NCBI GenBank assembly: GCA_017452265.1
Contig: JAFTMS010000031.1
Coordinates: forward strand, 1 to 64,000
Origin: Bacteroidales bacterium
GTDB taxonomy: Bacteria > Bacteroidota > Bacteroidia > Bacteroidales > UBA932
Direction: 5' to 3'
Length of the DNA: 64,000 bases
This document shows positions 19,383-34,479 of this stretch, in pieces. Positions within the stretch are counted from its first letter, which is position 1, and every line of letters begins with the position of its first letter. The notes beneath the pieces are model-generated. The model saw only the letters and a program-made list of their open reading frames with translations. It ran no database searches and was not told the origin of the DNA. Both the position numbers and the translations under genes were made by a program.

Positions 19383-19417
19383 AAAAGGTGGTTACATACA
19401 TTGTGACCACCTTTTTT
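19383..19417 (+). terminator. Rho-independent terminator of frdAB
   Basis: A 13-bp stem (19383-19395 with 19403-19415, one G-T pair, core AAGGTGGT/ACCACCTT) with a 7-base loop runs into TTTTTT at 19412-19417, 34 bp after the frdB stop. Confidence 0.9.
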
Positions 19418-20910: not shown

Positions 20911-21600
20911 TTATCTCAACTGGAAGATAACAGGGAATGTATAGGTTACCGGAACCGCACGGTCTCTCTGCTTTCCTGGCTTCCACTTTGGAGACATTGA
21001 AACCACTCTGACAGCCTCTTTGTCAAGCGATGGATCGACTCCACGGAGAACCTTTACCTTTGTTACCGAGCCATCCTTCTCTACTGTAAACTGGAGTGTC
21101 ACACGGCCCTGAACACCGTTTTCCTTTGCAATCTCCGGATATACAAGCCTTGAATTCACCCACTTTGAGAACTGGTTAGCATCACCGCCCTGGAATGACG
21201 GCTTTTCCTCTACCAGCTGGAACGGAATAGCTTCCTCTTCAACGACTTCCTCTTCAACTTCCACATAATCCATGATTTCAACTCCGAGGTTTGCATCGTC
21301 CTCAAGGTTCATGAACATATCGTCCTCAAGCTCGATTTCATCGTCCACGATGTCGATCTGGTCTGAAAGGACAGGAATCTTCGGTGCTGATGGTGGAGGT
21401 GGAGGTGTGTCCTGAGTGATTGGAATGATTTCCTCTTCCGCTGCGATTTCAGTTGTGTCCTCAAGCGTCGACACCGTTGTCTCCTTGCTTGTGTACTCGA
21501 AGGCGCCGAGTGTGATGGCCAGTGAAACTACAAGACCGATCTCCACAAAAAGGAGCTTCTTGTTTTCAAGGTTTGCCTTTTCTGACTTTTTGATTTCCAT
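20911..21600 (-). CDS. tonB: Energy transducer TonB
   Basis: Transmits proton-motive-force energy from ExbBD to TonB-dependent outer-membrane receptors such as SusC. The 229-residue protein has a short cytoplasmic segment, one N-terminal transmembrane helix (LLFVEIGLVVSLAITLGAF, about residues 15-33), a periplasmic linker with TPPPPPSAPK and a strikingly acidic stretch (about residues 80-120), and a C-terminal TonB domain (about 145-229: RLVYPEIAKENGVQGRVTLQ ... RGVDPSLDKEAVRVVSMSPKW). exbB and exbD are not nearby. It is divergent from ybeY. Confidence 0.93.
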   Translation of the reverse strand: MEIKKSEKANLENKKLLFVEIGLVVSLAITLGAFEYTSKETTVSTLEDTTEIAAEEEIIPITQDTPPPPPSAPKIPVLSDQIDIVDDEIELEDDMFMNLEDDANLGVEIMDYVEVEEEVVEEEAIPFQLVEEKPSFQGGDANQFSKWVNSRLVYPEIAKENGVQGRVTLQFTVEKDGSVTKVKVLRGVDPSLDKEAVRVVSMSPKWKPGKQRDRAVPVTYTFPVIFQLR

Positions 21601-22161: not shown

Positions 22162-24270
22162 ATGCGTAAGGAGTATGATGTTATAGTTGTAGGCGGCGGA
22201 CATGCCGGCTGTGAGGCTGCAATGGCCGCTTCTCGCATGGGTTCTTCTGTGCTTCTCATATCTATGGATATGAACAAATTTGCACAGATGTCCTGCAATC
22301 CGGCTATTGGTGGTATTGCTAAAGGTCAGATTGTCAGAGAAATAGATGCTCTTGGAGGATATACCGGCATAGTCACTGACGCCTCGACTCTCCAGTTCAG
22401 GATGCTGAACAGATCCAAAGGTCCTGCTATGTGGAGCCCTCGCGCACAGTGTGATAAAATCCAATTTTCCCTGTACTGGCGTAAAATACTCGAAAGTGCC
22501 TGTAACTTAGACCTTTATCAAGATTCTGTGACCGGTTTTATCTTTTCTGGTTCAAAAATTTCGGGAGTCCGTACGACTACAGGCGCAATTTTCAATTCTC
22601 GGACGGTTATTCTTACCGCCGGAACCTTCCTTGACGGCCGTATGTTCATTGGGCGTACCATGTTCGAGGGAGGAAGGATAGGGGAGTTGCCTTCCCATGG
22701 TCTGACCCGGCAGCTCGTAGAGATGGGAGTTCGGACTGCGCGCATGAAGACAGGTACTCCGCCTCGTATCGACATTTCGTCTGTCGACACGTCGAAGCTT
22801 CTTCATCAGTTCGGTGATGAGACTCCTGAAAAGTTTTCTTATCTTCCGTACCTGTCCACGGCTCAGAACGGAACTCCTCAGATGCCTTGTTTCGTAGTAC
22901 ATACCAATCCTCGTGTGCATGACATATTGAGAAGCGGCTTCAATGACTCTCCGTTGTTTTCAGGTCTTATAACAGGTATAGGTCCGCGCTACTGTCCGAG
23001 CATAGAAGATAAGCTCAGGACATTTGCCGACAAGACCGAACATCAGCTTTTCCTTGAGCCGGAGGGAAGGGGAACAAATGAATATTATCTTCAGGGTTTC
23101 TCTTCTTCTCTGCCGCTTGATGTACAGATGGATGCCCTTCATGCTATTGAAGGGCTTGAAGATTCAAAGGTATACCGACCTGCCTATGATGTTGAATATG
23201 ATTACTTTGATCCTGTTCAACTTAAACCATCACTTGAGCTGAAGAATATAGAAAATCTGTTCTTTGCCGGCCAAATTAATGGTACAACCGGATACGAAGA
23301 GGCTGCTGCTCAAGGACTTATAGCCGGAATGAATGCTCATCTCAAGGTTGCTGGAAAGGATCCTTTCATATTGAAGCGTGACCAGGCTTATATCGGAGTC
23401 CTTATTGATGATCTGATAACGAAGGGCGTAGATGAACCTTACAGGATGTTTACATCAAGGGCTGAGTATAGGACACTTCTGAGGCAGGACAATGCTGATT
23501 TCAGGCTCACACCGTTATCTTTTAAGGTTGGTCTTGCGGACAGATTCAGATATGATTATACCATGAAGAAATATGAGTCTGTAGAGCTTTTCAATCAGTT
23601 TTTTGCTGATGCATCTGTGAAGCCTGATGATGTAAATCAGTACTTGACTACTGTTTCTTCAGCTGAAATTAATTCAAGAAAGAGAATAACAGAACTTATT
23701 TCAAGACCTCAAACCTCGGTAAGTGAAATTTTAAATTTAGTTCCACGTGGAACTTTTTCTAAATTCGATATTGATCTGGAATCGGAATTTTCTTCGCCTT
23801 TGAATAATTTGCTTAATGAGGGCGTGAAATATTGTGATCTTATCAAGTATGGTTCCTACGCTTCTTTGAAGGATAAATTTTCTGGTGAATATTCTTCGGA
23901 GAATCTGTCTTATCAGGATGCTGTGCATATTCTCCAGTATAATACAGAGTATCCTGTCGCTGATTTAGATTCTTCATCATTGGATTCAAAAATAATGACT
24001 GAATACAAGAGGGAAGTGTTGGACGCTTCTGAAATATCCATTAAATATAAAGGATACATTCAGCGTGAGCAGCAGATGGCAGATAAAATCATGAGGTTGG
24101 AGAATCTGATTATACCGGAAGATTTTGATTTTGACAGGGTCGAGAGTCTGTCGATAGAATGTCGTCAGAAGCTCAAGAAATATGCTCCAAGAACGATAGC
24201 ACAGGCATCAAGAATATCTGGGGTATCTCCGGCGGATATATCTGTGCTTCTTGTGTATTTTGGTAGATAA
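22162..24270 (+). CDS. mnmG: tRNA uridine 5-carboxymethylaminomethyl modification enzyme MnmG, with insertion
   Basis: With MnmE this FAD enzyme builds cmnm5U34 in tRNA anticodons. The FAD motif VVGGGHAGCEAAMAASRMG, the CNPAIGGIAKGQIVREIDALGG block and GQINGTTGYEEAAAQGLIAG are intact. At 702 residues it is about 70 longer than typical MnmG (about 620-630). The extra length lies between LNLVPRGTF (about residue 528) and the conserved EISIKYKGYIQREQQ near residue 633. That second half is visibly AT-richer than the first. A parS-like palindrome is embedded at the start of the insertion and another overlaps the stop codon. Confidence 0.95.
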   Translation: MRKEYDVIVVGGGHAGCEAAMAASRMGSSVLLISMDMNKFAQMSCNPAIGGIAKGQIVREIDALGGYTGIVTDASTLQFRMLNRSKGPAMWSPRAQCDKIQFSLYWRKILESACNLDLYQDSVTGFIFSGSKISGVRTTTGAIFNSRTVILTAGTFLDGRMFIGRTMFEGGRIGELPSHGLTRQLVEMGVRTARMKTGTPPRIDISSVDTSKLLHQFGDETPEKFSYLPYLSTAQNGTPQMPCFVVHTNPRVHDILRSGFNDSPLFSGLITGIGPRYCPSIEDKLRTFADKTEHQLFLEPEGRGTNEYYLQGFSSSLPLDVQMDALHAIEGLEDSKVYRPAYDVEYDYFDPVQLKPSLELKNIENLFFAGQINGTTGYEEAAAQGLIAGMNAHLKVAGKDPFILKRDQAYIGVLIDDLITKGVDEPYRMFTSRAEYRTLLRQDNADFRLTPLSFKVGLADRFRYDYTMKKYESVELFNQFFADASVKPDDVNQYLTTVSSAEINSRKRITELISRPQTSVSEILNLVPRGTFSKFDIDLESEFSSPLNNLLNEGVKYCDLIKYGSYASLKDKFSGEYSSENLSYQDAVHILQYNTEYPVADLDSSSLDSKIMTEYKREVLDASEISIKYKGYIQREQQMADKIMRLENLIIPEDFDFDRVESLSIECRQKLKKYAPRTIAQASRISGVSPADISVLLVYFGR
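23739..23754. other. parS-like ParB-binding palindrome 1
   Basis: AGTTCCACGTGGAACT is a perfect 16-bp palindrome. Its core GTTCCACGTGGAAC differs from the widespread parS consensus GTTTCACGTGAAAC by one symmetrical base pair, and this form is known from other bacteria. It lies in frame within mnmG and encodes Val-Pro-Arg-Gly-Thr. Confidence 0.7.
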
Positions 24271-24306
24271 AGGAAAGTAGTTCCACGTGGAACTACTTTC
24301 CTTTAT
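24267..24306. terminator. 40-bp perfect palindrome with parS-like core at the mnmG stop
   Basis: Positions 24267-24286 are the exact reverse complement of 24287-24306. The central 14 bp are again GTTCCACGTGGAAC. The palindrome overlaps the mnmG TAA stop (24268-24270), ends in TTTATT on the right, and would serve as a terminator for mnmG. It thus looks like a combined terminator and ParB-binding site (parS-like site 2). Confidence 0.75.
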
Positions 24307-24307
24307 T

Positions 24308-24343
24308 AGATTCTCACGCCTCTGTCGAGGCTCAGAATGACGT
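24308..24343. repeat. Short palindromic dispersed repeat copy
   Basis: AGATTCTCACGCC...GGCTCAGAATGACGT has imperfect inverted ends and resembles the AGATTGCCACG...AATGACGT units at 25,105 and 54,558. It follows directly after the mnmG terminator palindrome. Confidence 0.45.
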
Positions 24344-24442
24344 ATTGCAATTAATATTATGCGGTGATAAGTCTCATTGCGACCTTATCGCGTCATTGTA
24401 AAGACAATGTACATCATGCGAGTTTATAGACGATTTGGTTAT

Positions 24443-24475
24443 GTCATTGTGAGGCTCGCAAAGCCGTGGCAATCT
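24443..24475. repeat. Short palindromic dispersed repeat copy (inverted)
   Basis: GTCATTGTGAGGCTCGCAAAG...GGCAATCT is the reverse-complement orientation of the AGATTGCC...AATGAC unit. It ends 14 bp before the ruvA stop, so the mnmG-ruvA gap is filled largely by two opposed copies. Confidence 0.45.
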
Positions 24476-24488
24476 CTGAAAATATGCC

Positions 24489-25076
24489 TTACAAGCGCTT
24501 TAAAGCCAGTTTTATGATTTCTTCGAGCGTCGCCGCCGGCTTTTCTTTCAATACTGCCGACACTGCCTTGTTTACATTTGCCTTTGTAAATCCAAGCATT
24601 ACGAGAGCTGTCACAGCTTCGTCCACCATTGCATTCGAAGACGTGCTGAACAATGCCTGGCTCTCTGCTCCTGCGCCTTTGACTATCTTGTCTTTCAGCT
24701 CCAGAATGAGTCTCTGGGCGCTTTTAAGGCCGATTCCCTTAATGCTTTTAATCTTGTTGATGTCTTCCGAAAGTATGGCGTTTCTGATTTCTTCCGCGGT
24801 CAAAGATGAAAGCATCATCCTTGCTGTCGATGCTCCTATTCCTGACACACCGATCAGCAGGCGGAACAGTTCGCGTTCGTCCTTTGAGGCGAAACCATAA
24901 TACAGTTCTTCGTCTTCACGGATGTAATGGTGAATGTATACGGTGGCGTCGGATTTTCCGTTCAATCCTTCGTAAGTCTGAAGCGATATCAGTATCCTGT
25001 AGCCTATTCCATAGCATTCAAGGATGACTTCTGTAGGTGTCAGTTCCGTTACGGAACCTTTAATATAGTCTATCAT
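24489..25076 (-). CDS. ruvA: Holliday junction branch-migration protein RuvA
   Basis: DNA-binding partner of RuvB; tetramers hold the four-way junction. The 195-residue length is typical. Domain I starts MIDYIKGSVTELTPTEVILE with an OB fold. Helix-hairpin-helix motifs follow (LIGVSGIGASTARMMLS and IKSIKGIGLKSAQRLILELK), and a C-terminal RuvB-binding domain includes EAVTALVMLGFTKANVNKAV. It is leftward, unlike its rightward neighbours, and is not linked to ruvB or ruvC. Confidence 0.96.
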   Translation of the reverse strand: MIDYIKGSVTELTPTEVILECYGIGYRILISLQTYEGLNGKSDATVYIHHYIREDEELYYGFASKDERELFRLLIGVSGIGASTARMMLSSLTAEEIRNAILSEDINKIKSIKGIGLKSAQRLILELKDKIVKGAGAESQALFSTSSNAMVDEAVTALVMLGFTKANVNKAVSAVLKEKPAATLEEIIKLALKRL

Positions 25077-25104
25077 GATTTGTTTGTTTAATTTTCTTCA
25101 ATTT

Positions 25105-25140
25105 AGATTGCCACGTCACTGTCGTTCCTCGCAATGACGT
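25105..25140. repeat. Short palindromic dispersed repeat copy
   Basis: AGATTGCCACGTCACTG...CCTCGCAATGACGT, with opposed GATTGC and GCAATGAC ends, lies upstream of the ruvA start. The unit recurs at 54,558 and in variant form at 24,308, 24,443 and 20,806. It has the look of a REP-type repeat found only between genes. Confidence 0.5.
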
Positions 25141-25238
25141 TCATTGCACTGATGCTTGTTTTGCGTATATTATGTTCAATGATTATCCGTTATCCGTGCA
25201 GTACGTATTTGATTATTCATACATCGTTATGGCTACCA

Positions 25239-25366
25239 TCACACAGAAAATTCGCTAAAAAGCTGTGTGACGGTTCCGATTGCATCGCCGAATGTGCTAC
25301 TGGTGCGCTGTATTGAGGGTATCTAAAAGCGTCACACGAAAAAATGCCACAAAACCTGTGTGACGC
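25239..25366. repeat. Two tandem related hairpins upstream of sufS
   Basis: In a 502-bp gene-free gap (25,077-25,578), TCACACAG (25239-25246) pairs with CTGTGTGA (25263-25270). About 90 bp on, GCGTCACAC (25329-25337) pairs with GTGTGACGC (25358-25366). Both loops are A-rich and both units continue as TGTGTGACG-TCC, so they are diverged copies of one element. No coding potential is convincing in this gap. Confidence 0.55.
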
Positions 25367-25527
25367 TCCCATGCTGTTCATTTCGGTCTTTGAGCTCCAG
25401 TTGAAATGACAAAGTGAGCTTTACTCAGAATGAACAATGGTAGACAATTTACTGCACCTTTAGCGGACAATCAATTTTGTTCTGCAAAATTATGATAATA
25501 ATCTGTATAATGAAACATTGTTTTTGT

Positions 25528-25535
25528 TAAATTTG
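25528..25535 (+). promoter_or_regulatory. -7 box upstream of the suf genes
   Basis: TAAATTTG fits TAnnTTTG and lies 43 bp before the sufS start. No TTG lies at the ideal spacing, so strength is uncertain. Confidence 0.45.
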
Positions 25536-25578
25536 CAGGATTTTAGGAGCGTAACTCACGACAATAAAAAATAGGACA

Positions 25579-26805
25579 ATGAATGTAAATGAAATACGCG
25601 AAATGTTTCCGGCACTTTCAAGGAAGGTGTATGGGAAGGATCTTGTGTATTTCGACAATGCAGCCACTTCCCAGCGTGTTCAGACTGTCATCGACAAGTG
25701 GAACGAGATAAGCGTGCAGTCAAATGCCAATATCCATAGGGCAGTGCATCGCATGGCTGATGAGGCCACTCAGGCGTATGAACAGGCCAGAGATGCTGTG
25801 AAGGACTTCCTCAATGCTGAAAGCAGACAGGAGATAGTTTTTACGAGCGGTACAACGGCAGCAATCAACCTTATTGCCTTCTGTTTCGGTGAGGCTTTTG
25901 TGAGGGAAGGGGATGAAGTTGTTGTAAGTGAGGCTGAGCACCATTCCAACATAGTGCCGTGGCAGATGATGTGTCAGAGGAAGGGTGCTGTCTTGAAGGT
26001 TCTGCCTGTGGACGATTCCGGACACATTGCATTGGAAAAGCTTGATACGCTTCTTACTGACAAGGTGAAGATACTTGCGGTAACACATGTCTCGAATGTG
26101 CTCGGAATCATCAATCCTATCCGGCAGATTATAGAAAAGTGTCATGAGAAGGGGATTCCGGTGCTTGTGGACGGAGCCCAGGGGGCGGTACACTGTATGC
26201 CTGACGTAAAGGAACTGGATTGCGACTTCTATGTATTTTCCGGTCACAAGCTTTACGCTGCCACAGGTACCGGAGTGCTTTACGGAAAGAAAAAATGGCT
26301 GGAGCAGATGCCTCCGTATATGGGAGGCGGCGAGATGGTTGGAACTGTGAAATTTTCAGGGACGACTTATGCTCCGCTTCCGATGAAGTATGAGGCCGGC
26401 ACTCAGAACTTCGCTTCCGCCGCGACTTTAAAGCCTGCTTTAGAATTTATTAACTTATTGAATAATAATGAGTTAATAAAATATAACGATACCATAAGAG
26501 ATTATCTTCTTGATAAGCTGACAGCAGATAAGAGAATAAGGCTTTATGGTGTTCCGCGTGGAACAAATGAAGAAAAGATACCGCTTTTTTCCTTTTCTGT
26601 CGAAGGAGTGCATCACGAAGATCTGGCTCTGATTCTCGACAAGATGGGGATTGCCGCAAGGTCGGGTCAGATGTGTGCCGAACCGGTAATGGACCGTTTC
26701 GGTGTGACCGGAATGCTCAGGGTGTCGCTCGCTCCATACAATACGATGGAAGAGGCGGAATATTTTGTGAAATGCCTTGATAAGGCGATTAATATGTTGG
26801 TATAA
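25579..26805 (+). CDS. sufS: Cysteine desulfurase SufS
   Basis: PLP enzyme that takes sulfur from cysteine as a persulfide for Fe-S cluster assembly. The 408-residue protein shows YFDNAATSQRVQTVID at the N-terminus, the lysine that binds PLP in FSGHKLYAATGTG, and the active-site cysteine in the group-II context RSGQMCAEPVMDRFG. It is 1 bp upstream of sufE, its sulfur acceptor. sufBCD are not in the window. A parS-like site lies inside the gene at 26,550. Confidence 0.95.
   Translation: MNVNEIREMFPALSRKVYGKDLVYFDNAATSQRVQTVIDKWNEISVQSNANIHRAVHRMADEATQAYEQARDAVKDFLNAESRQEIVFTSGTTAAINLIAFCFGEAFVREGDEVVVSEAEHHSNIVPWQMMCQRKGAVLKVLPVDDSGHIALEKLDTLLTDKVKILAVTHVSNVLGIINPIRQIIEKCHEKGIPVLVDGAQGAVHCMPDVKELDCDFYVFSGHKLYAATGTGVLYGKKKWLEQMPPYMGGGEMVGTVKFSGTTYAPLPMKYEAGTQNFASAATLKPALEFINLLNNNELIKYNDTIRDYLLDKLTADKRIRLYGVPRGTNEEKIPLFSFSVEGVHHEDLALILDKMGIAARSGQMCAEPVMDRFGVTGMLRVSLAPYNTMEEAEYFVKCLDKAINMLV
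26550..26565. other. parS-like palindrome 3
   Basis: TGTTCCGCGTGGAACA inside sufS matches the perfect palindrome TGTTCCACGTGGAACA at 15 of 16 positions and is the same motif as sites at 23,739 and 24,280. It encodes part of VPRGT, as does site 1, in a protein position where this is not a SufS signature. Confidence 0.6.
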
Positions 26806-32860: not shown

Positions 32861-33571
32861 TTATTTCAAATAGTCGTTTATCAATTGTTTAATAGTATCT
32901 TGAGCATCTTCTTTTCCTACTAAGGCTATCAGTTTGTTGTAATCTTCAATTTCATTACCCGTAAAAGTTATTATAATTTGGCGTTGTATGCTTCCGGCAA
33001 TGTGGGTGTAATTTTCAGGGTGTGCCCAAAAACAATTGACGCAGAACATATCGTCTTTCTCTTTCCAATTGGCGCAATGTTCACAAGTCCAAGACTTTGC
33101 ACGGTTTGCAGAGGGACTTAACAGCATATAGCAATCAATGTTATCTGTTTTTTGTTCACCACCAATTTCATAAGGTATCCGATGATCGACTTGTAGCAGT
33201 TCTTCATCCATAGTTTCCCAATAGATAAAGCATCTTGCTCCGTATTTGTCTATCAGAGCACGTTTCAAAGCTTTTGAAAGTATGGTTCTGCCAGCAACTT
33301 TAGATAGTTTATTTTCTGTTTCGTCAGGATTGCCAAAACGGTATGCAGCCATTCTTTTCCCTTCAGAGTTTTTTATATAATAGGTTTCTATTGGAATGCC
33401 TTGTTCTTTCACATCCCTGACAGCACGTGGCGGATGCTTATAGCCATATATATTTTCCAGTTCTTCTGTAGTTATATGTCCATGCTTTAAAATATGTTGA
33501 ATAACTGTCGCCGGTCGTTTGTTCGTCACGGAATTCAGCTTTTCTATGAATTTCTTGGGAAAATTCTTCAT
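32861..33571 (-). CDS. HNH restriction endonuclease
   Basis: A 236-residue protein. The N-terminal part (about 1-60) looks like a winged-helix or DNA-recognition domain (VIQHILKHGHITTEELENIY). The core carries an HNH motif, LLQVDHRIPYEIGG followed by TDNIDCYMLLSPSANRAKS, and then four Cys in CEHCANW and FCVNC that would bind zinc. Its ATG overlaps the stop of the adenine-methylase gene by 4 bp, the usual arrangement of a type II restriction-modification pair. Base composition is visibly AT-richer than flanking genes, suggesting transfer. The recognition site is unknown. Confidence 0.82.
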   Translation of the reverse strand: MKNFPKKFIEKLNSVTNKRPATVIQHILKHGHITTEELENIYGYKHPPRAVRDVKEQGIPIETYYIKNSEGKRMAAYRFGNPDETENKLSKVAGRTILSKALKRALIDKYGARCFIYWETMDEELLQVDHRIPYEIGGEQKTDNIDCYMLLSPSANRAKSWTCEHCANWKEKDDMFCVNCFWAHPENYTHIAGSIQRQIIITFTGNEIEDYNKLIALVGKEDAQDTIKQLINDYLK

Positions 33572-34479
33572 ACTGCAAGTTCTTCAAAGATTGACAATTG
33601 GGTAGCTACATTCATTTGACGATATTTCAGATTCCGGCTTATGTACAATGCTTCATATGTAATGTCCTTTTTTCCTAAAAGGACCGCCTGGCTGGAAACA
33701 CCTGCATTTAGATATACTTTTTTGCAATCGAGCCATTCCGGCAGGTCATTGCCGTATTTTTTTTCACCGCACTTGCCGTCGTAACTGATGACGAAATCTA
33801 TTCCACGATGGTTCAGGGAGTCTACAGCTTCTACAAATTCATTGAAATCAATACCTGACAAATAACGGCAGTCACGCACGTTGGACACTCCTTGATAGGG
33901 TGGATCCATATACACCAAATCTCCGGGACGCGCCATTTCAAGAACTTCTCGATAATCGGTAGACATGAATAAGGCTTTGTTTTTCAATAGACCTGAGATG
34001 GCATGTACATTGGTGGCTAAAGTCTTTGGATTTGTGCCGTTCCGTCTTTTGTCTGGTGATTGATTGAACTTTCCATTCTTGCCGTATCTGACAGATCCTT
34101 TTACGCAACGTGCCAAGAGATAAAGAATCTTTTCGGGATCCTGTTCTCCACTGTTGAACAGCTCTCGTACATGATAATAGTGCTCCACGCTTCCGTTGGT
34201 AAAGTCGAACTGCTCTCTCCAAAGTTTGTTATAATTGGCAGCAAGCAGTTCCGGTGTTTCGATGGCACTTTTCAATAAAGTCATTAAAGGAAAATTAATA
34301 TCGTTAATGACATACATGTCAGCACGTTTTTGCTGCGCTGTCGCTATGGTTACTGCGGCCATTCCGGCAAACGGTTCGATCAGGCGATTGAATTTTTTAG
34401 GGAAATATGCAAGAATCTGAGGAGCCAGATTCCTTTTGGAACCCTGATATTGTACTATATGTGGAGCTGCTTGCTTCAT
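33568..34479 (-). CDS. D12-class N6-adenine DNA methyltransferase (Dam-like)
   Basis: Protects host DNA from the cognate HNH nuclease. The 303-residue protein has the N-terminal QYQGSKRNLAPQI and SAM-binding motif I FAGMAAVTIA, the acidic ADMYVINDIN, and the catalytic motif IV DLVYMDPPYQG of the alpha-class (D12) adenine methylases. It is the first gene of the pair and overlaps the nuclease start by 4 bp, so the methylase is made first. AT-rich like its partner. Confidence 0.92.
   Translation of the reverse strand: MKQAAPHIVQYQGSKRNLAPQILAYFPKKFNRLIEPFAGMAAVTIATAQQKRADMYVINDINFPLMTLLKSAIETPELLAANYNKLWREQFDFTNGSVEHYYHVRELFNSGEQDPEKILYLLARCVKGSVRYGKNGKFNQSPDKRRNGTNPKTLATNVHAISGLLKNKALFMSTDYREVLEMARPGDLVYMDPPYQGVSNVRDCRYLSGIDFNEFVEAVDSLNHRGIDFVISYDGKCGEKKYGNDLPEWLDCKKVYLNAGVSSQAVLLGKKDITYEALYISRNLKYRQMNVATQLSIFEELAV

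Follow-up and report, generated by a model that had tools for sequence, protein, structure and literature searches.

Three parS-like sites lie within 2.8 kb in and around mnmG and sufS in the window analysed here, the first 64 kb of a 249-kb contig (C29) from the draft genome of an uncultured gut Bacteroidales bacterium (2,564,470 bases in 45 contigs, 84% complete). It is very likely that they make up the parS cluster that serves a ParABS system at the chromosome's replication origin, and that the site behind mnmG is a composite of parS and a transcription terminator. The first-pass annotation of the window had described two exact copies and one copy with a single change, and this clustering was confirmed; the third site, which it had placed at 26,550-26,565, is present but occupies 26551-26564, the earlier range holding one flanking base on each side. 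The features concerned are as follows.

23740-23753, no strand assigned: parS site 1, exact GTTCCACGTGGAAC, in frame in mnmG (codons 527-531, VPRGT)
24280-24293, no strand assigned: parS site 2, exact GTTCCACGTGGAAC, with 9 bases between the mnmG stop and the site
26551-26564, no strand assigned: parS site 3, GTTCCGCGTGGAAC, one central mismatch, in frame in sufS (codons 325-329, VPRGT)
22162-24270, plus strand: mnmG (gidA), 702 amino acids (NCBIfam TIGR00136)
24489-25076, minus strand: ruvA, convergent with mnmG (NCBIfam TIGR00084)
25579-26805, plus strand: sufS, cysteine desulfurase (NCBIfam TIGR01979)
24266-24307, no strand assigned: long hairpin between mnmG and ruvA with site 2 at its tip (RNA folding and arm covariation)
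21348, no strand assigned: minimum of the cumulative GC skew of the 249-kb contig (skew computation)

The parS cluster and the probable replication origin

At up to one mismatch to the 14-mer GTTCCACGTGGAAC, sites 1-3 were the sole matches in the draft genome and a reversed-pattern control gave none, showing that the motif is not frequent genome-wide. The broader pattern GTTYCACGTGRAAC added a single one-mismatch match, on contig C7, and at up to two mismatches it matched 21 places compared to 24 in the control, indicating no excess outside the cluster. In the window alone, four matches at up to three mismatches were not unusual against an expected 2.35. The evidence for the cluster rests on the exact and one-mismatch sites.

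Nor does the genome lack a parB homologue. A profile search returned one ParB_N match, a 310 amino acid ParB on contig C22 that scored above the TIGR00180 cut-off; its best-scoring family was nucleoid_noc, but there it fell below the cut-off. Directly upstream of parB lies a 255 amino acid frame for a ParA-like ATPase. The motif had been recognised as a known variant of the ParB/Spo0J site, and this agrees with the available parts of two published studies, in which the 14-base core of Pseudomonas aeruginosa PAO1 parS1-4 is the same as GTTCCACGTGGAAC (PMC4368675) and the Myxococcus xanthus consensus TGTTCCACGTGGAACG, with an identical core, is bound by ParB in gel shifts (PMC3899335). P. aeruginosa parS7 (TGTTCCACGAGGAACG) has the same one-off core as the sufS site of some relatives, and nine of the ten P. 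aeruginosa sites most likely lie within coding sequences, as do sites 1 and 3 here (PMC4368675, available text). The arrangement in M. xanthus, 22 sites in a 3-kb cluster near parA (PMC3899335, available text), differs from the present one, with three sites and with parAB on another contig (C22) than the cluster (C29).

The cluster had been supposed to be origin-proximal, and on C29 the minimum of the cumulative GC skew falls at 21,348, 2.4 kb from site 1. A relative assembled as a single contig of 2.66 Mb (G010) carries two one-mismatch sites at 69-683, at mnmG, and its skew, sampled in 20 stretches 130-180 kb apart, was lowest at the contig end where these sites lie. Several observations count against the assignment: the ParA-like protein scored below every NCBIfam cut-off, just 21 kb of C29 lies to the left of the skew minimum in a test made on one contig of a draft, and the sampled skew of a second single-contig genome (G077, 2.38 Mb) was irregular, lowest at about 1.32-1.44 Mb with the parS sites, one-mismatch forms at mnmG, at 1.51 Mb. 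Taken together, the case for a ParABS centromere at the origin is established at the level of sequence.

The use of dnaA as the origin marker was rejected in two single-contig family members, where dnaA lies 0.8-1.0 Mb from the parS-like sites: at 1.63 Mb in G010, with the sites at about 0, and at 0.72 Mb in G077, with the sites at 1.51 Mb. The G010 dnaA lies near the maximum of the sampled cumulative skew, that is, towards the terminus. In the window genome dnaA is on a different contig from the cluster, and no match to TTATCCACA at up to one mismatch was found at 15.6-27.9 kb, where DnaA-box clusters near parS were sought. ParB usually recruits SMC. A search with PF02463 in 10 genomes gave top frames of RecN and RecF size (judged by frame length) and one 1136 amino acid frame with a weak match (G041, E 1.8e-5); a full-length SMC was not evident in this search, and condensin loading is not claimed. 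In the available text of a Hi-C study of gut Bacteroidota, the origin is marked by clusters of parS but not systematically by dnaA, and the two Bacteroidetes examined there yielded no homologue of any known condensin (PMC10197239). A parS behind the mnmG stop may provide an origin landmark for uncultured Bacteroidales, where dnaA can mislead.

The hairpin behind mnmG

The palindrome centred on site 2 runs 13 bases further on each side, and mnmG and ruvA converge on it. The plus-strand RNA folds into a 19-pair stem closed by a 4-base loop (-28.0 kcal/mol, z -7.4, with none of 200 shuffles as stable), and the minus-strand RNA forms 18 pairs (-26.4 kcal/mol, z -8.6). Bidirectional intrinsic (Rho-independent) terminators between convergent genes have this general form, a hairpin behind the stop with an A-rich left arm and a T-rich right arm.

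The hairpin was surveyed in 49 loci of the lineage with at least 69% MnmG identity and an available mnmG stop, 41 of which have a site at up to one mismatch within 700 bases behind the stop, while 8 do not (one of them near a contig end). Arms of at least six perfect pairs were present at 32 of the 41 copies of site 2, compared to 2 of the 48 copies of site 1 and none of the 34 copies of site 3, and the mean arm extension at site 2 was 9.1, compared to 1.7 with shuffled partners (maximum 3.1 in 500). Fold energies more than two standard deviations below the flank-shuffled mean were likewise concentrated at site 2 (34/41, with 6/48 at site 1 and 9/34 at site 3). In an alignment of the 41 loci (37 distinct rows), the five parS pairs were invariant and changes on both sides occurred in all 13 arm pairs. 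Cells changed on both sides numbered 91 compared to 32.0 in shuffled alignments, the covariation score was 0.351 compared to 0.143, and the share of paired cells was 84.2% compared to 71.0%, none of 500 shuffles reaching the observed value in any of the three measures; structures slid along the same alignment gave 21-35 cells and scores of 0.106-0.176. Runs of at least four A precede site 2 in 30 of the 41 loci and runs of at least four T follow it in 31, with the reverse arrangement in 5 and 3, a polarity that fits a two-way intrinsic terminator. From this combination we infer that the site 2 hairpin is a bidirectional intrinsic terminator with parS at its tip. It differs from ordinary bidirectional terminators in that the inner stem is the nearly invariant parS and variation is confined to the outer arms. 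Beyond the lineage, extended arms were also present in two loci of the order sample: 9 at L174, where the site lies 93 bases behind the stop, and 13 at L224, where the distance is 162 bases.

A number of results pull the other way. Arms were under six pairs in 9 of the 41 loci, and the two loci left out just below the 69% cut show arms of 1 (L077) and no site 2 (L098). Of the 500 shuffled alignments, 29 reached the observed count of pairs changed on both sides (13) and 26 the observed number of pair types, and the related sequences in these shuffle controls are not independent. At site 1, T-runs of at least four also follow in 22 of 48 sequences, with A-runs before it in 1 of 48. Behind the hairpin in the window itself there is no T-run of four or more, its U-tract is weak, and a consensus terminator scan of the window did not list it. 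Four of the loci lacking parS (L061, L075, L076 and L078) have no strong hairpin in the gap.

An alternative explanation is a plain parS cluster in which the hairpin is a DNA feature, an extended ParB site or a cruciform, with no terminator. Since parS is already a DNA palindrome and the window's hairpin has no clear U-tract, this explanation has some merit, but sites 1 and 3 are parS as well and are mostly armless, and A before and T after the site in about three quarters of the loci, rarely reversed, would not be expected of a symmetric DNA site. In addition, a different strong hairpin occupies the same gap in three parS-less loci (L038 and L039, from one assembly, and L047), and the gap of L066 folds well too, although the four further loci named above do not have one; and a neighbouring convergent pair, read as sdhB/hflX, has a terminator-like hairpin of similar build at 19383-19415. 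We regard the terminator-free explanation as unlikely. The names sdhB, hflX, ybeY and glyS come from inspection of the translations, those of mnmG, ruvA, sufS, parB and dnaA being excepted.

If the composite of parS and terminator is accepted, the favoured explanation for the terminator being at parS is that the place was merely convenient, offering a ready-made palindrome behind a stop codon. A more tentative possibility, to which we give clearly less than even weight, is that the terminator is maintained for the sake of parS: a halt to transcription there would shield ParB, while it loads or slides as a clamp, from RNA polymerase passing through, or ParB bound to the hairpin would itself help to stop the polymerase; if true, selection would couple segregation and termination at the origin.

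While parS, its location in coding sequence and the GTTCCACGTGGAAC variant are already known, the double use of parS as the tip of a terminator hairpin looks new. Neither a parS-terminator composite nor an order-wide attachment of parS to the mnmG stop was found in the open-licence literature searched. For the P. aeruginosa sites, the available text describes no fixed link with the mnmG stop or with a terminator hairpin, and the word "terminator" occurs 0 times in the paper (PMC4368675); attachment to mnmG and a terminator are likewise not mentioned in the available part of the Hi-C study of parS clusters in gut Bacteroidota (PMC10197239). Relatives with and without terminator arms, and with and without in-gene copies, offer natural material on how ParB loading and transcription share DNA.

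Distribution of parS at mnmG

A survey of 149 genomes of the family gave 118 with one or more sites at up to one mismatch; single one-mismatch matches are weak evidence, because the reversed control also gives scattered matches. A pattern search of the genus with two mismatches was too loose for use. Uncultured Bacteroidales make up most of the named MnmG relatives; many of these come from animal guts, and Candidatus Cryptobacteroides is among them.

The order was sampled with 68 mnmG 3' ends, comprising 28 loci and 40 fetched by rank of MnmG similarity from 114 genomes with a match. A strict GTTYCACGTGRAAC site lies between -2 and +200 of the mnmG stop in 63 of these and between -2 and +30 in 54, with four sites overlapping the stop codon itself; of the five without a strict site, two have one with a single mismatch, 3 bases behind the stop. 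Inside mnmG, a strict site was present in 0 of the 68. Among the best-scoring 29 of 60 genomes of the phylum, a site lies behind mnmG in 19, behind it or at most 400 bases upstream in 25, and inside it in one. This placement suggests that parS at mnmG is old and that the in-gene copies were added by the lineage.

The same distribution bears on whether the palindromes might be operators of another DNA-binding protein. The order-wide sites behind mnmG have GTTCC or GTTTC half-sites, the latter being that of the general parS consensus TGTTTCACGTGAAACA used in the available text of PMC10197239, and the sequence identity with proven parS, the single cluster in the genome, beside the skew minimum, and the parB adjoining a parA-like gene all speak against an operator, which we consider highly improbable.

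The history that would fit a parS cluster with a composite site is as follows. The older Bacteroidales parS would be the one directly behind the mnmG stop. In the lineage, variable stretches of MnmG and SufS would then have acquired further copies as in-frame five-codon units (GTT CCA CGT GGA ACN, encoding Val-Pro-Arg-Gly-Thr), and the copy behind mnmG would have grown outward into a long hairpin at which the transcripts of mnmG and the converging ruvA both end, so that a single palindrome could serve ParB as DNA and RNA polymerase as RNA. ParB would load at the three sites, and ParA, encoded beside ParB elsewhere in the genome, would separate the new origins. The sites and their clustering, the parA-like and parB genes, the position relative to the skew minimum of a single contig, the frozen synonymous bases, the order-wide placement and the covarying arms are observed, whereas the relative age of the copies, ParB binding, terminator activity and any benefit of the combination are inferred.

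The copies inside mnmG and sufS

Sites 1 and 3 had been read as encoding VPRGT, and both were found in frame. Site 1 was compared in 48 mnmG sequences, the window and loci with at least 65% identity and a complete frame (L038 and L039 sharing one assembly), and its codon position is the same in every one of them. In GTT CCA CGT GGA (codons 527-530) the wobble bases do not vary as long as the codon family is retained (48/48, 48/48, 46/46 and 48/48). They make up four of the six invariant columns in a total of 250 four-fold columns, for which the median major-base share is 0.51. Divergence among the sequences is considerable, with a median pairwise third-position identity of 0.47 and only 1 of 1128 pairs above 0.9. 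The two copies that depart from the site do so at the R codon (TGT and CAT), changing the amino acid and keeping the remaining bases. Frozen synonymous positions indicate selection on DNA and not on protein, as the first-pass annotation had proposed. The idea that it is the VPRGT peptide for which the in-gene copies are conserved, with the likeness to parS incidental, draws on the identical peptide of both copies but can hardly be right, given synonymous positions frozen while flanking codons vary freely, the two mnmG copies altered in amino acid only at the R codon, the identical sequence of the non-coding site 2, and the lack of both peptide and site in 10 of 12 more distant SufS.

Both copies lie where the proteins vary. 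MnmG aligned with Chlorobium GidA (3cp8) solely at 5-525 and 619-702, leaving residues 526-618 unaligned, and the site 1 codons lie at the start of this stretch; site 3 lies in a stretch of sufS with insertions and deletions among relatives, and the 10 more distant SufS just mentioned have gaps in the loop. This suggests that parS is carried where the protein tolerates it. In two relatives (L062:7579 and L071:7579), the in-gene mnmG parS also has palindromic arms, of 11 and 9 pairs, though coding.

In the close clade, GTT and GGA of the sufS site are kept in 33 of 33 relatives and none of the 33 sites is perfect, the deviations at positions 6 and 9 being mutually exclusive. The notion that this copy is deliberately kept imperfect was dropped after perfect sites were found in six loci of other genus members and in a wider sample. 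The wider sample comprised 110 SufS sequences (that of the window, those of 29 loci, and 80 more fetched from the top of the ranking, 255 of 300 genomes having a match; one row with an internal stop was skipped and one genome is present twice). Eighteen had a perfect site, 35 had one change at position 6 or 9, 27 others had sites at up to two mismatches, 8 of these out of frame and at a different place, and 30 had no site; none had positions 6 and 9 both changed. The simpler reading is that a site can bear one mismatch but rarely two. Relatives without the sufS copy have an imperfect parS-like site (one or two mismatches) upstream of glyS (L062:11777, L068:11370, L070:11330, L071:11301 and L069:8046), which suggests turnover of the third site.

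Another part of mnmG, 22474-22640 (codons about 105-158), has unusually conserved third positions in the 48 relatives, with 14-codon windows up to 0.87 compared to a mean of 0.59; examples are TTA at codon 116 (48/48), TCT at 146 (46 of 46 TC codons) and GTT at 149 (46 of 46 GT codons). The stretch does not stand out in the 68 order-level loci, and no consensus RNA structure was found in a search at codons 128-170. It is possibly an embedded DNA element near the skew minimum. Further along the window, a frame on the minus strand at 33568-34479 is DNA adenine methyltransferase-like, and the adjoining minus-strand frame at 32861-33571 resembles an HNH-type endonuclease, both named from their translations.

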